Assembly (NCBI GenBank): GCA_022821145.1
Contig: JAJEEE010000077.1
Location: 88,795 to 152,794 of the forward strand
DNA: 64,000 nt
DNA from: Acidobacteriota bacterium
Lineage (GTDB): Bacteria > Acidobacteriota > Terriglobia > 20CM-2-55-15
Direction of reading: 5' to 3'
Shown here one piece after another: positions 46,782-52,392 of this stretch (its first letter is position 1; each line of letters starts with the position of its first letter). Below the pieces are notes generated by a model that was given only the letters and a program-made list of their open reading frames with translations, ran no database searches and was not told the DNA's origin. The translations under genes and the position numbers were made by a program.

Positions 46782-49700
46782 TCAGAAACGGAACCGGAGT
46801 CCCAACTGAATCCGGCGCGGCGGGTGTGCGCCGGTAAAGCCCAACGGTTCGGCGGGCCCGCGGGACGGGTCTCCCGTCACATCGAACGACGGCATGGGCG
46901 AGGCGCCGACGACGGTGTTGACGCCCGAATAGTTGATCGCGTTGAAGAGGTTGAACGCCTCGGCCACGGCGTCGATACGGCGGTTCTCGCCCAGGTCGAA
47001 CGATTTCTGAACTCGAATGTCGACGCTGGCGAACCGGGGGCCGCGGCCCGTGTTCCTCCCGGCCGACGGCGGCCGGTCCGTGTGCGGGTTCGTGTCGCCG
47101 TTGGCGTCGAAGCCCAGGCGAAGGTTGAACGGCCGGCCGCTGGCGAGTATGACGCTGGGCGACAGAGTGATCCCGGCCAGGAGGCGGACGGCCGCGAAAC
47201 CGGGATCGAGTGGCGCCCTGAAGACGCCCGTCAGGACGAGGCGGTGGCGTTCGTCGAGCGCCGACACGGCGCGCTCCGACGCCAGGTCGAGTTGATTCGC
47301 CGCTTGCAGCTCCGTGAGTGCGCCCGCGACGTCATCGATCGTCTTCGACAGCGTGTACGCCGCGTGGAACTGGTAGAAGTCGGAGAAACGCCGGCCGACC
47401 CGGGCGGTGACGCCGTGATGGACGGAGTTGCCCGACGACTCCAGGACGTTGTCCTGGAGGATGGCCGCGTCGATGAGTCCGAACACCGGGCCGGACTCGT
47501 TGTCGCCGACGATGCGGAGATTCCGATTCCGCGACCTCGGCAACTTCACACCGCGATTCCAGAGATAACCCACGCTCGCCGTCCAGTGCGCGCCCCACTC
47601 CCGTTCGACCTCCAAGGTGGCCTGCTGGCTGTAGGGACTGATCCGGTCCGGGGATGGACGCAGACGAACCGAGGGCGCCGTCTCGGGTGACAGGCCCAGA
47701 CCCGCAACGTCGGCCGCGGAGATCCGCCGGTCGCCGACGACACCCTGCCGGATCAGCCGTTCCCAGACGCGGGCGGCGTCCGGCCCGCTCTCCGGCCCCG
47801 GCCGCCCGTCCCGGAGCACGAGCCAGTGCCGGGCGCCGGCGCCGTCCGCGAGCGGTTCGAGCCAGCCGACACTGGCGTCGACCGGGGCGTGAAAGACGCC
47901 GTAGCCCCCCCGGAGCACGGTCCGCGGGCGGAAGCTCCAGGAGAAACCGATTCGCGGGGCGACGTTGTTGGCGTCCCGGCGCGGGAAGGGCGTCTGGACC
48001 TCGACATCGTAACGGACTCCCAGCGCCAGCGTGAGCGATCGCGTCACTCGGACGGTGTCTTGAAGATAACCGGCCAGCAAGCCGTCGTTCCGCGCGACGG
48101 CCGGATCCCCGAGCCCCAGCCGGTATGAAATCGGCCGGCCCATGTTGTAGGCCTGCAGCGCCGTGATGGGTTCGGAGAACCGGCCCGCGAGGTCGGTGCG
48201 GCCGAGGGCCGCCAGCGCGCGCCCCGCGGCCGCCGAACGGCCGTCACCGTGCCGCGAATCGACGAGGAAGGCCAACGGAACGTCCTGCCCGAAGACGAAT
48301 CGGCCGCCGAAGTACGATTCCGAGACTCCCCGCCGGGTCACGCGGTGCCACTCGCCGCCCGTCTTCAACTCGTGGCGGCCCGCCACCTGGATGAAGTTGT
48401 CCACCAAACGCCAGCGCCTTGCGTCTCGACGGATGGGGAGAAACGCGTCCCGGCCGAGCGTCGCCAGCCCGTGGATCTGTATTTCCGGGCCCAGAGCGTC
48501 CGTGGGCAGCGTCTCCAGGTCGCCGTCGGCCCACTGGAAACGGAGCTCGTTCAATCGCGACGCGGAGAACTCGCCGACGGCGGACAGATTCACCGACACG
48601 TCTCGACGCCACAGGTCGACGCCGCCCGAGGGCCCGGTCAGGCCGCCGAACGCGCGAGCGTCGTGGTCCGCGTCACCGAAACCGAGTCGAAACGAGACCC
48701 GGCCGGTTCCTGGAACCTGATGATCCAGACGCAGCGATGCGGCATGCGCCTCGGTACGGGCCGGGAAAACGCCGCTCTCGCCCTCCAGCAACGCGACCGT
48801 CGCCCGGTGCGAGGCCTCCGACGTCGTCAATTGCGCCGAAAGCGACGCGCCAAGCGATCGAAGCTCGGCGACCGGGGCGGAACTCATGACCGCCAACAAC
48901 TCGGCCTGGGACGCGGTCGGACGCAGGACGGCCTCGTCCTGCAGAAACGTGGCGGTCTCGGAACGCCTCTCGGAGCGGCCGTCGTAGGACACGAAAAAGA
49001 AGCTCCGGTCCCGTACGATCGGACCGCCCAGACCGAATCCCGACTGCACGCGTCGAAACGGCGCATCGACGACTGCGCCGCCCGGACCGACAGCGAACGG
49101 GTTCGGCGCATCCAGAGCCTCGTGCCTCGCGAAAACGAACGCCGAACCGTGCCAGTCGTTGCCGCCGGACCGGGATACGAGATGGATGACGCCCGTCCGG
49201 GCGCGGCCGACCTCAACCGGAACGCCGGCGCGATGGACACGAAACTCCTCGACCCCTTCCGGGCCGATGACAGCCGCGCCCGTCGCCGCGTCGATGTCCA
49301 GTCCGTCGATGGCGACCCGGTGGGAGCGCCCGCTCTGGCCCGTGAACGACAGGTCCGAATCCGGAGTCCACGGAAGTTCGAACGCGGCCGGGCCGCGCGC
49401 TCGCGTCGCGCCGGGCGTCAGCAGGGTCAGGTCCAGAACCATCCGGCCGTCGAGGGGCGAGTTCTCGATCCGCAACCGGCCGATCGTATCGGCCGCGTGG
49501 GTCCGTCCGGCCTCGATCGGCGGCGCGGGCGTTGTCAGAAGCACTTCGCTTCCAGCCGGCGCCGCCGTCAACCGGGCGTCGATGTCGACCCTCTGCCCCA
49601 CCCCGACGCGTATCGGACGCCGGGTGACGACGGTGAAGCCATCCAGCGCGAACTCGATTTCGTAGTCGCCGGGCGGAACCAGTGGAAAAACGTAATCGCC

Positions 49701-49889
49701 CCGCCCGTCGCTCGCCGTCCGCCACACCGCCCCGGTGTCGGTCCGGGTCGCGGACACCTGGACCGCGGGCAACGCCGCGCCGAGCGAATCGACGATGGTC
49801 CCGTCGATGCCGCCGTCCGACGCCTGGGGCCCGGCATGCGCGCCGGACGCCAACACCAGAACGCAGCAGAGAACCGGCCGAAGGTTCAT
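46782..49889 (-). CDS. Oar-like TonB-dependent outer-membrane receptor
   Basis: 1035 aa. Signal peptide, a carboxypeptidase regulatory-like domain (GTIVDSLGAALPAVQVSATRTDTGAVWRTASDGRGDYVFPLVPPGDYEI, about 28-105), a degenerate plug (about 120-220), then a long beta-barrel of about 800 residues ending in the terminal Phe (IQLGLRFRF), the usual signal for insertion. This domain order is typical of Oar-like receptors in Acidobacteria. Substrate unknown. It starts 33 nt after the Fur-rubrerythrin fusion on the same strand, which makes iron-linked regulation plausible. Confidence 0.85.
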   Translation of the reverse strand: MNLRPVLCCVLVLASGAHAGPQASDGGIDGTIVDSLGAALPAVQVSATRTDTGAVWRTASDGRGDYVFPLVPPGDYEIEFALDGFTVVTRRPIRVGVGQRVDIDARLTAAPAGSEVLLTTPAPPIEAGRTHAADTIGRLRIENSPLDGRMVLDLTLLTPGATRARGPAAFELPWTPDSDLSFTGQSGRSHRVAIDGLDIDAATGAAVIGPEGVEEFRVHRAGVPVEVGRARTGVIHLVSRSGGNDWHGSAFVFARHEALDAPNPFAVGPGGAVVDAPFRRVQSGFGLGGPIVRDRSFFFVSYDGRSERRSETATFLQDEAVLRPTASQAELLAVMSSAPVAELRSLGASLSAQLTTSEASHRATVALLEGESGVFPARTEAHAASLRLDHQVPGTGRVSFRLGFGDADHDARAFGGLTGPSGGVDLWRRDVSVNLSAVGEFSASRLNELRFQWADGDLETLPTDALGPEIQIHGLATLGRDAFLPIRRDARRWRLVDNFIQVAGRHELKTGGEWHRVTRRGVSESYFGGRFVFGQDVPLAFLVDSRHGDGRSAAAGRALAALGRTDLAGRFSEPITALQAYNMGRPISYRLGLGDPAVARNDGLLAGYLQDTVRVTRSLTLALGVRYDVEVQTPFPRRDANNVAPRIGFSWSFRPRTVLRGGYGVFHAPVDASVGWLEPLADGAGARHWLVLRDGRPGPESGPDAARVWERLIRQGVVGDRRISAADVAGLGLSPETAPSVRLRPSPDRISPYSQQATLEVEREWGAHWTASVGYLWNRGVKLPRSRNRNLRIVGDNESGPVFGLIDAAILQDNVLESSGNSVHHGVTARVGRRFSDFYQFHAAYTLSKTIDDVAGALTELQAANQLDLASERAVSALDERHRLVLTGVFRAPLDPGFAAVRLLAGITLSPSVILASGRPFNLRLGFDANGDTNPHTDRPPSAGRNTGRGPRFASVDIRVQKSFDLGENRRIDAVAEAFNLFNAINYSGVNTVVGASPMPSFDVTGDPSRGPAEPLGFTGAHPPRRIQLGLRFRF

Positions 49890-49922: not shown

Positions 49923-50885
49923 CTACGCATCCGCGACGGCGTTTTCGGCCTCGACCAGCCGTTCGTACTCGTCGCGGAGGCTTTCCAGGTGCGAACGTTC
50001 CTCGCGCGCGAATTCCCGGAAGATCTTCCGTCCGCGCGGATCATCCAACTGCTGGGCGAAGTCGTTGAAGAACTTGTGGGACTTGCGTTCGATGTCCATG
50101 GCCAGGTGGAGCGCCTCGACGTGGGTCATCGCGTCCCGGACGTCGATCGACAGCAACTCTCGCTCCGGGAAGATCCGGTCGGCAATCTTGCGGCTCACCG
50201 GCAACCGGGCGGGCTCGCGGCGGAGCCACCGGTGCTCCTCCAGCAGCGCCTTGTACTCGCCCCGAAGACGATCCATGTGCCCGGCCTCCTCCGCGGCCAA
50301 TGCCTCGAACATCCGGCGCCCGCCGGGATCCCGCGTCTTCTTGGAAGCGTTCGTGTAGAAACTGTAGCCACGGCGCTCCACGGCCAACGTCAGCTCCAGG
50401 GCGTCGCGCGCCAGGATCTTCCGTTGACGTTCGTCTTCCGCGAGGCCCGTCTGCTCGGCTTCGTCCCGTTCGCACGCGCGGCAGGACCCGTAGATCGCGT
50501 AACGGCTGAACACGGGCTGAAAGTCGTGCTTTTCGGTTTCCTCGCGAATCAGGCGCTCGATCCGCCGCGACGGGAACTCCTCGGTGTCGCCGCAGCGATC
50601 GCAAATGAAGTGGATATGATTCGGCTGGCTGATCAGGGGCTCGTATCGCGTCGTCCCCTCGTGCTTGGCCTGGCGGATCATCCCGGACTCCAGCAGAATC
50701 TTCAGGGTCCGGTAGATCGTCGAAAGCCCGATGCGGTGGCCCTTCTCGATCAACCGTTCTCGGATCTCCTCGACCGAGGGGTGGTCGTCCGCCTCCACAA
50801 GCGTCTCCCATACATGAGACCGCTGTGAAGTCTTCCTGAGTTTCTTCTCCGACAGGAATCTCTGAAAGCGTTTCTGCTGGCGCAT
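49923..50885 (-). CDS. Fur-family metalloregulator fused to a duplicated rubrerythrin-like di-iron domain
   Basis: 320 aa, more than twice the usual Fur. Residues 1-145 are Fur: winged helix (TSQRSHVWETLVEADDHPSVEEIRERL, GLSTIYRTLKILLESGMI), the metal-site segment NHIHFICDRCG (His90, His92) and structural zinc pairs Cys95/Cys98 and Cys135/Cys138. Residues 155-315 are a four-helix ferritin-like domain built from two similar halves: ALELTLAVERRG...EEAGHMDRLRGEY and ALHLAMDIERKS...EERSHLESLRDEY. Di-iron ligands would be Glu170, Glu200/His203, Glu266 and Glu296/His299. There is no frameshift between the parts. Such a protein could sense iron by Fur and oxidise or sense peroxide by the di-iron centre. 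ATG 50885 begins the Fur domain; 10 nt upstream lies TATAAT. Confidence 0.9.
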   Translation of the reverse strand: MRQQKRFQRFLSEKKLRKTSQRSHVWETLVEADDHPSVEEIRERLIEKGHRIGLSTIYRTLKILLESGMIRQAKHEGTTRYEPLISQPNHIHFICDRCGDTEEFPSRRIERLIREETEKHDFQPVFSRYAIYGSCRACERDEAEQTGLAEDERQRKILARDALELTLAVERRGYSFYTNASKKTRDPGGRRMFEALAAEEAGHMDRLRGEYKALLEEHRWLRREPARLPVSRKIADRIFPERELLSIDVRDAMTHVEALHLAMDIERKSHKFFNDFAQQLDDPRGRKIFREFAREERSHLESLRDEYERLVEAENAVADA

Positions 50886-50895
50886 CGGTGTCGCG

Positions 50896-50925
50896 ATTAT
50901 AAGCGGCTCGTTCGCGTCGTGTCCC
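50896..50925 (-). promoter_or_regulatory. Promoter of the Fur-rubrerythrin gene
   Basis: On the minus strand GGGACA (50925-50920) and a perfect TATAAT (50901-50896) are 18 nt apart. The predicted start of transcription is within about 5 nt of the ATG, so the mRNA would be nearly leaderless. No full Fur box is visible here. Confidence 0.5.
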
Positions 50926-51007: not shown

Positions 51008-51553
51008 ATGAAGAACCCGATATCCTTGAGCCTTCTGGTGGTGGGCCTGAGCGCCTGCGCCGCCCCCCCCCAACCCGCCTTCGATGGCGAGTGTGTCGCA
51101 CCCCAACTCGCCGCCGACGACGCGGGCGACGGCGAACACCGACCGGCGCCGTTTTTCCAGTTGGCGGCGTTTCCAGACGGGGCCCTGTGTTCCGAGGAAC
51201 TCCGCGGAAAAGTCGTGGTCGTGGACTTCTGGGCCACTTGGTGCCAACCCTGCATCGCGGAGATCCCGCACCTCAACGCGCTCCACGACGAATACGGTCC
51301 GGACCAGTTCGCCGTGATCGGCGTCACGATCGAATCGGGCGCCTACGAGGACATCCAGGCCGAGCTCGACCGGTTCGGGATCGAGTATCCCGTGGTGATG
51401 GGCGACGAAGCCGTCGTCAACGGTTTCGGCGGCGTCATCGGTTTTCCGACGAAGTTCGTCGTGACGCCGGATTGGACCATCTACAAGCGGCACATGGGCG
51501 GGGGCGAACATATCAAGGAACAGATCGAGCAGGACATCGCCGACCTGCTCTGA
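51008..51553 (+). CDS. TlpA/ResA-like thioredoxin lipoprotein
   Basis: 181 aa. Lipoprotein signal with lipobox GLSAC (Cys17). The thioredoxin domain has the active site WCQPC (Cys79, Cys82) in VVDFWATWCQPCIAEIPHLNALH and the cis-Pro in GFPTKFVV. Expected to be a membrane-anchored thiol reductase, probably fed with electrons by CcdA (28797-29540). GAGGG lies 5 nt upstream of the ATG and TATAGT is at 50973-50978. Divergent from the Fur fusion gene. Confidence 0.9.
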   Translation: MKNPISLSLLVVGLSACAAPPQPAFDGECVAPQLAADDAGDGEHRPAPFFQLAAFPDGALCSEELRGKVVVVDFWATWCQPCIAEIPHLNALHDEYGPDQFAVIGVTIESGAYEDIQAELDRFGIEYPVVMGDEAVVNGFGGVIGFPTKFVVTPDWTIYKRHMGGGEHIKEQIEQDIADLL

Positions 51554-51579: not shown

Positions 51580-52392
51580 TCAAACGGGAACCAAGACGGA
51601 AAACAGCAGGAACTTGGCGAAGAACTCGCCGAACAGCAAGGTCACCACGACCAGGTAGAGCAGCCCCGTTGCGGCCTGCGTGTGGCGGATCCGAACCGTG
51701 CTCCAGGTCATCAGCCCCAGGATGACCGGTATCGCCACGCCGAATATCACTCGCGGCCAGAAGAACAGCCCCTGGTCCCGCATCAGTTCGGTGGCGACAC
51801 CGGCCCAGGTGACCCCTTCGACGGCGGCGGGGAGCACCGACAGGCTGACGCCGATCGTCAGCGCGCGAAACGCCACGGCGGCCAGATAGACGCCGGTCAA
51901 CCGCTTCAGCGGTTCGATGGACAGTTTCGGAACCACCAGGTACCAGTGACCGAATACCATGGCCAGCATGCCCGATCCCAGCAGGGCCGTCGCCGCGAGG
52001 TGATGCAGCAGCAGCAACTGCCGCTCCCAGCCGCCCAGGTCCATCAGTTGCGTGAAAGCGAGGGAGTCGGCGGCGACGGCGCCGAGCCCCATGGCGGCGG
52101 CGGCCCCCAGGAGAACGAGGGCCGGCCCGTGCTTGCCTATGTGAACGGTACGATTGTAGACGCCGGCCAGCACGGCGGACCCGGCCAGGAGTACGAACGG
52201 CAGCGCGCTGTCGCGGGCGGTCGGAGGGAACAGGTAGTCGAAACCCAGGGCCACGCCCATCAGGATGGCCGCGGTCTTGCTGGCGAACTCGAAGAAGCTG
52301 TTTCCGATCGAACGGGGCGAGATCCAGAGCAAGGTCGACAGCATGCCGACCGCGAGCTGGGAGAACAGGAAGAAGAACGTCGATGAAATCAT
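51580..52392 (-). CDS. Multi-pass membrane protein of unknown function
   Basis: 270 aa, about eight membrane segments. Conserved-looking polar residues inside the membrane: His-His in LLLLHHLAATALLGSGMLAMVFGHWYLVVPKL and an Arg in FRALTIGVSL; these could bind haem, but no known family is recognised. Its start region overlaps that of the divergent amidohydrolase gene by 10 bp (52383-52392). TATATT (minus strand, 52405-52410) is 12 nt upstream. Confidence 0.6.
   Translation of the reverse strand: MISSTFFFLFSQLAVGMLSTLLWISPRSIGNSFFEFASKTAAILMGVALGFDYLFPPTARDSALPFVLLAGSAVLAGVYNRTVHIGKHGPALVLLGAAAAMGLGAVAADSLAFTQLMDLGGWERQLLLLHHLAATALLGSGMLAMVFGHWYLVVPKLSIEPLKRLTGVYLAAVAFRALTIGVSLSVLPAAVEGVTWAGVATELMRDQGLFFWPRVIFGVAIPVILGLMTWSTVRIRHTQAATGLLYLVVVTLLFGEFFAKFLLFSVLVPV

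Follow-up and report, generated by a model that had tools for sequence, protein, structure and literature searches.

Organization of the fusion locus

The analysed window, a 64,000-nucleotide stretch of Acidobacteriota DNA, carries on its minus strand a gene that joins a Fur regulator to a ferritin-like domain, flanked by a divergent redoxin gene and a downstream gene for a receptor-like outer-membrane protein. The principal features are as follows.

46782–49889, minus strand: TonB-dependent-receptor-like outer-membrane protein, 33 nt downstream of the fusion
49923–50885, minus strand: Fur–ferritin fusion gene, 320 aa in a single frame, with full-length homologues
49968–50405, minus strand: ferritin-like (rubrerythrin/COG1633-type) domain, aa 161–306, with PF02915 and 2fzf/TM1526 profile matches and four predicted helices
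49989–50090, minus strand: di-iron half-site 2, E266 (helix C) and E296xxH299 (helix D)
50277–50378, minus strand: di-iron half-site 1, E170 (helix A) and E200xxH203 (helix B)
50406–50459, minus strand: linker, aa 143–160, the least conserved part
50460–50885, minus strand: Fur part, aa 1–142, with winged helix, regulatory site and zinc Cys4
50896–50901, minus strand: TATAAT –10-like box, ending 10 nt 5' of the fusion ATG
51008–51553, plus strand: TlpA-like redoxin with a CxxC motif (PF00578/PF08534), divergent from the fusion

The frame runs uninterrupted through 320 codons from an ATG at 50883–50885 to a stop at 49923–49925, in exact agreement with the coordinates, strand and frame given by an earlier sequence-only reading, which had described one continuous frame joining the two domains. 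The ATG is taken as the start because the TATAAT box is conserved beside it in the window's family, f1, where it adjoins the fusion ATG in all ten members compared; its position suggests a leaderless transcript of the f1 fusion. Separate production of the two domains, which the sequence-only reading had named as evidence against itself, is ruled out by a linker without a start codon: ATG, GTG and TTG codons are absent between residues 131 and 166 of the window protein. A chance or assembly fusion is likewise ruled out by conservation of the full-length frame across Acidobacteriota. Incomplete copies number only two, one of them (L031) cut by a contig end and the other (L117) lacking most of the Fur part. 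The L117 copy has the ferritin part but retains just the last stretch of the Fur part; it lies in a single-contig genome of 85% completeness (G209) that has no FUR match, and represents either a broken copy or a sequencing error.

In both of the further f1 regions that were inspected, a homologue of the redoxin gene is likewise divergent from the adjacent fusion, and the two start codons come as close as ~40 nt in some f1 genomes. A hydrophobic 270-aa protein with no Pfam match (window 51580–52392, minus strand) is conserved next to the redoxin and fusion genes in three genomes of f1, and a TonB-receptor-like gene adjoins the fusion in L086 as well. Among 17 regions, nine place an ErpA/IscA-type Fe-S carrier gene (Pfam run on one) directly upstream on the same strand.

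Conserved metal ligands of the Fur half

The N-terminal half matches PF01475 (FUR) over aa 14–125 with an E-value of 5.6e-27 and 94.7 bits, against a curated Pfam cut-off of 23.1. Its regulatory ligands H35, E82, H90, H92 and E103 are invariant in all 64 distinct full-length fusions, and the hinge-site ligands of the window protein align with those of solved Fur structures. The zinc cysteines C95, C98, C135 and C138 are equally invariant (64/64), which bears out the earlier description of a complete Fur with both CxxC pairs. The additional His-rich site of Fur is missing from f1 and from the largest fusion clade.

Di-iron ligands and predicted fold of the ferritin-like half

The C-terminal half matches PF02915 (Rubrerythrin) over aa 161–306 (E 3.8e-12; 47.2 bits against a curated cut-off of 22.8). 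All six di-iron ligands, E170, E200, H203, E266, E296 and H299, are present, as the sequence-only reading had stated, and are kept in 60 of the 64 distinct fusions. The two halves of the domain are 38% identical over 56 aa, so the internal repeat that the same reading had called a duplication is real; helix-pair pseudo-repeats with pseudo-twofold symmetry are normal for ferritin-like four-helix bundles, and nothing about it is unusual. Among solved structures, the top matches to a profile of the ferritin part are 2fzf (2.5e-11) and TM1526 (7.7e-11), followed by designed di-iron proteins, EncB and symerythrin. Structurally, AlphaFold models built from shallow alignments contain the Fur elements and four long helices at modest confidence (mean pLDDT 66 and 71) and do not define how the helices pack. 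Foldseek searches with the ferritin model return weak matches with large rmsd, while single hairpins of the predicted model match sulerythrin, rubrerythrin and EncB. No cysteine follows residue 138 in the window sequence, so a rubredoxin-like FeCys4 domain is absent, and the Pfam scan of the window protein contains no membrane domain of the VIT1 exporter type. The C-terminal domain is predicted to bind iron and to have ferroxidase activity.

The four exceptions to ligand conservation all fall in family f36 (L059, L125, L128 and L131), where one or more di-iron ligands are gone and every Fur ligand is intact. Judged by these sequences, the Fur part does not strictly depend on the di-iron centre in the f36 lineage, and any coupling between the two sites would not be obligatory there, because the Fur site is retained while di-iron ligands are lost. 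The f36 fusions thus offer a natural test set for the need of the di-iron site.

Distribution, selection and origin

Full-length fusions occur in 10 of the 11 genomes of family f1, including the window's own; the other f1 members are 56–93% identical to the window protein, and those of family f7 33–35%. A homologue search finds matches in 70 of 396 Acidobacteriota genomes and 42 of 211 genera (even draw, E<=1e-27), nearly all spanning both domains. In the phylum of L003, the full-length fusion occurs in none of 198 genomes, and the Fur-part matches found in 126 of these end at or before position 173 of the 314-position model. A search at E<=1e-40, made without a positive control, likewise gives no fusion in 149 genomes from the phylum of L002. 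Plasmid or phage carriage was considered and rejected: no plasmid record covers 80% of the fusion query, and viral contigs contain no fusion.

Between the window gene and its closest homologue, dN/dS is ~0.15 for the Fur part and ~0.06 for the ferritin part; both halves are therefore under strong purifying selection, and the ferritin half is the more constrained. A single origin of the fusion is compatible with the Fur-domain tree, which needs three changes between fused and unfused states and has few columns and several long branches.

The fusion as sole FUR protein or beside a standalone Fur

FUR-family proteins were counted in 58 genomes picked for carrying the fusion, a count that leaves other iron-regulator families, such as DtxR, aside. 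The fusion is the only FUR protein in 36 of the 57 carriers with a detectable one, among them a single-contig genome (G050); the remaining carrier, G209, yielded no FUR protein.

The window's genome (G000) contains two FUR proteins: besides the fusion, a standalone Fur is encoded at C3:50164-50526. The feoAB promoters of f1 contain classical Fur boxes, GAAAATGATAATCGTTTTC, which the standalone Fur may serve. In the window's genome the box reads CGAAATGACAATCGTTTTC, a Fur-box-like site in front of a FeoB gene (C3:153597-155271) that lies just past the window end, ~15 kb from the fusion. Since a standalone Fur co-occurs and the fusion has diverged, the fusion in the window's family is probably a second, specialised regulator; its regulon may be narrowed, given that the standalone Fur is also present.

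A putative operator in the largest fusion clade

The genome G406 has the fusion and no other FUR protein; in front of its feoAB genes, a TATAAT box is followed directly by TGAGACTTAGTCTCA, a perfect palindrome with the 7-1-7 geometry known from Fur boxes (PMC7762939). The strict pattern TGAGAYTNARTCTCA gives nine sites in 6 of the 15 genomes searched and none for the reversed control, and all nine precede iron-uptake or iron-linked genes, namely FeoA-FeoB (3), an FTR1 iron permease (1), TonB-receptor (2), PepSY_TM (2) and CbiX (1). The looser pattern TGAGAnnnnnTCTCA, a Fur-box-like palindrome, was picked after two of the sites were known, so that those two are not independent. It gives 92 sites against 3 reversed across 40 genomes of the largest fusion clade, whereas 25 genomes that do not belong to the clade have 51 sites and 44 reversed ones (Fisher p ~7e-13, with genome relatedness ignored). 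All 33 informative clade genomes lean toward TGAGAnnnnnTCTCA over its reverse, and the 27 clade genomes in which the fusion is the only FUR protein contribute 65 sites against 3. Read individually, 16 of 20 clade sites adjoin iron-import or iron-linked genes, and none of 19 sites read by eye outside the clade has a recognisable iron gene beside it. Sites in front of feoAB, FTR1, TonB-receptor, PepSY_TM and CbiX genes are found at L175–L183, L203, L205–L209 and L211. The divergent partner in L176, L179 and L181 is a conserved protein with the N-terminus (V/M)R(I/M)DLNSDLGESFGPWPMG that resembles 5-oxoprolinase subunit A.

Sole-FUR status together with enrichment of TGAGAnnnnnTCTCA at iron-import genes indicates that the clade fusion is very probably the working iron-uptake repressor, presumably acting through this putative operator, the link between fusion and operator resting on co-distribution. 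The window and the f1 family have no excess of TGAGAnnnnnTCTCA, neither a Fur box nor TGAGAnnnnnTCTCA lies near the window's fusion, and the ten f1 fusion promoters share no conserved palindrome. There is also no sign of autoregulation, as 7-1-7 palindromes of the TGA...TCA type are absent ahead of the operon in the erpA-fusion regions. A near-palindrome, GA(A/T)ATTGACATTCAATTTC, lies in the feo region of f7 genomes (L156 3191–3209 and L158 46–64) and is a candidate operator of the f7 fusions, the sole FUR protein there.

Comparison with known systems

Like the Fur proteins of M. gryphiswaldense (4RAZ/4RB1) and E. coli (8J6W), the fusion has the PF01475 fold, the zinc Cys4 site, the iron regulatory site and the invariant arginine of the recognition helix, together with, in the largest clade, a putative operator of 7-1-7 geometry and candidate iron-import targets. 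It differs from them in its extra C-terminal di-iron domain of ~160 aa, in the loss of the additional His-rich site in f1 and the largest clade, and in a putative largest-clade operator that reads TGAGAnnnnnTCTCA rather than TGATAATnATTATCA. The COG1633/rubrerythrin-like proteins, represented by P. furiosus 2fzf, T. maritima TM1526 (1vjx) and symerythrin (3qhb), share the repeated E...ExxH four-helix motif and are the best natural profile matches, whereas the partner in the fusion is a DNA-binding regulator; unlike strict rubrerythrin, the fusion has no rubredoxin FeCys4 domain. MbfA also fuses a non-caging ferritin-like domain to another iron-homeostasis module, but there the partner is a VIT1-type membrane exporter instead of a regulator, and MbfA is itself under the control of Irr, a Fur-family regulator that is a separate protein (PMC7762939). 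The window protein matches the MbfA model NF045676 weakly (34.6 of 450 bits). Ferritin-type domains are thus seen with several partners, as MbfA and a weak NCBIfam match of the window protein to a GltB/ferritin-type fusion model illustrate.

A likeness of working principle, with no homology claimed, exists with FBXL5 and BRUTUS, which combine a helical di-iron domain and an effector in one chain with iron- and O2-dependent output (PMC12022348); these are eukaryotic proteins with a hemerythrin fold and an E3 ligase output. The di-iron hemerythrin-like centres of plant BRUTUS hold non-labile iron in the oxidised state and become partly labile on reduction (PMC12022348), and by this analogy a di-iron domain can plausibly act as a sensor.

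Proposed mechanism and alternative explanations

The favoured reading, to which we assign a probability of roughly 0.55, is that the fusion is a Fur-family iron-responsive repressor whose built-in ferritin-like di-iron domain adjusts repression by iron and redox state. The sequences support a single molecule that unites an intact Fur metal-sensing site with an intact di-iron site, both under strong selection; we infer that metal occupies these sites, that the second has ferroxidase chemistry, that the protein binds its operator directly and that the two sites are coupled. In the proposed mechanism, the Fur half would dimerise via its zinc-stabilised domain, bind Fe(II) at the conserved His/Glu site and bind DNA, and the C-terminal four-helix domain would hold a carboxylate-bridged di-iron site. 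This site would most likely read iron and oxygen, as di-Fe(II) versus non-labile di-Fe(III), and would adjust the repressor such that iron status and redox state jointly decide when iron import is switched off. The more specific proposal, in which a ferroxidase-type centre is a second sensor that informs the Fur half of the Fe(II)/Fe(III) or O2 state, and in which most Acidobacteriota with the fusion have no Fur other than this two-site repressor, is tentative, with slightly less than an even chance of being right.

Coupling is the least certain step of the mechanism, and buffering without signalling is the main rival. Under that alternative, which is rather unlikely though it merits weight, the ferritin-like domain would be an iron-buffering or ferroxidase appendage that handles iron on its way into or out of the Fur site and guards DNA from Fenton chemistry in the manner of a mini-Dps. 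In keeping with such an appendage, the di-iron site is complete in 60 of 64 fusions, the ferritin half has changed less than the Fur half when the window protein is compared with its nearest homologue, and MbfA is a precedent in which an iron exporter carries a ferritin-like domain of the non-caging kind (PMC7762939). Against it, a low-copy transcription factor with an attached enzyme would presumably be a poor bulk detoxifier, and many families keep one domain order and a short linker, which suggests that the two domains are functionally linked. A mainly structural or oligomerising role of the domain, with a dispensable metal site, is quite improbable: the f36 members, with Fur ligands kept and di-iron ligands lost, speak for it, but every fusion outside f36 compared here keeps all six ligands at ~30–60% identity to the window protein, more conservation than a structural role by itself would account for.

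For the window's lineage, the reading that the fusion controls the adjacent redoxin and receptor genes as a PerR-like peroxide regulator has a very small chance of being correct. The divergent TlpA-like redoxin, with its very short shared promoter region in f1, would suit such a role, and the best NCBIfam score of the window protein is to a PerR model, although at 69.5 bits it is far below the cut-off of 180 and no NCBIfam equivalog exceeds its own cut-off. PerR needs Asp at two regulatory ligand positions for peroxide oxidation of histidine, whereas both positions are Glu (E82 and E103), never Asp, in 64 of 64 fusions, and PerR-type peroxide sensing is therefore unlikely. The earlier suggestion that Fe(II) sensing is coupled to iron oxidation or peroxide sensing is thus partly supported: both sites occur in one chain and the fusion is tied to iron-uptake promoters in a large clade, a PerR-type peroxide branch is unlikely, and tuning of DNA binding by the di-iron centre stands as a hypothesis.

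Implications for iron regulation

A literature search of open-licence papers found no published description of a Fur fused to a ferritin-like domain, in line with the earlier statement that no characterised protein of this architecture is known, and the fusion is rated here as a new, widespread variant of Fur. What is new is its status as the only FUR protein in most of the carriers with a detectable one, and the enrichment of TGAGAnnnnnTCTCA in one large clade. The Fur of the textbooks senses bacterial iron through a single regulatory iron site, whereas a broad range of environmental bacteria has a Fur that carries a second, chemically different predicted iron site in the same chain. The fusion allows a direct test of whether a bacterial repressor can use a di-iron centre to weigh iron level together with oxygen or redox conditions, an integration proposed for hemerythrin-type sensors of plants and animals, and TGAGAnnnnnTCTCA with its target genes provides ready candidates for assays. 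The two-domain architecture also supplies an annotation rule for genes otherwise called only 'Fur' or 'ferritin family'. In carriers whose sole FUR protein is the fusion, iron control may thus draw on a single regulator molecule with iron sites of two kinds.
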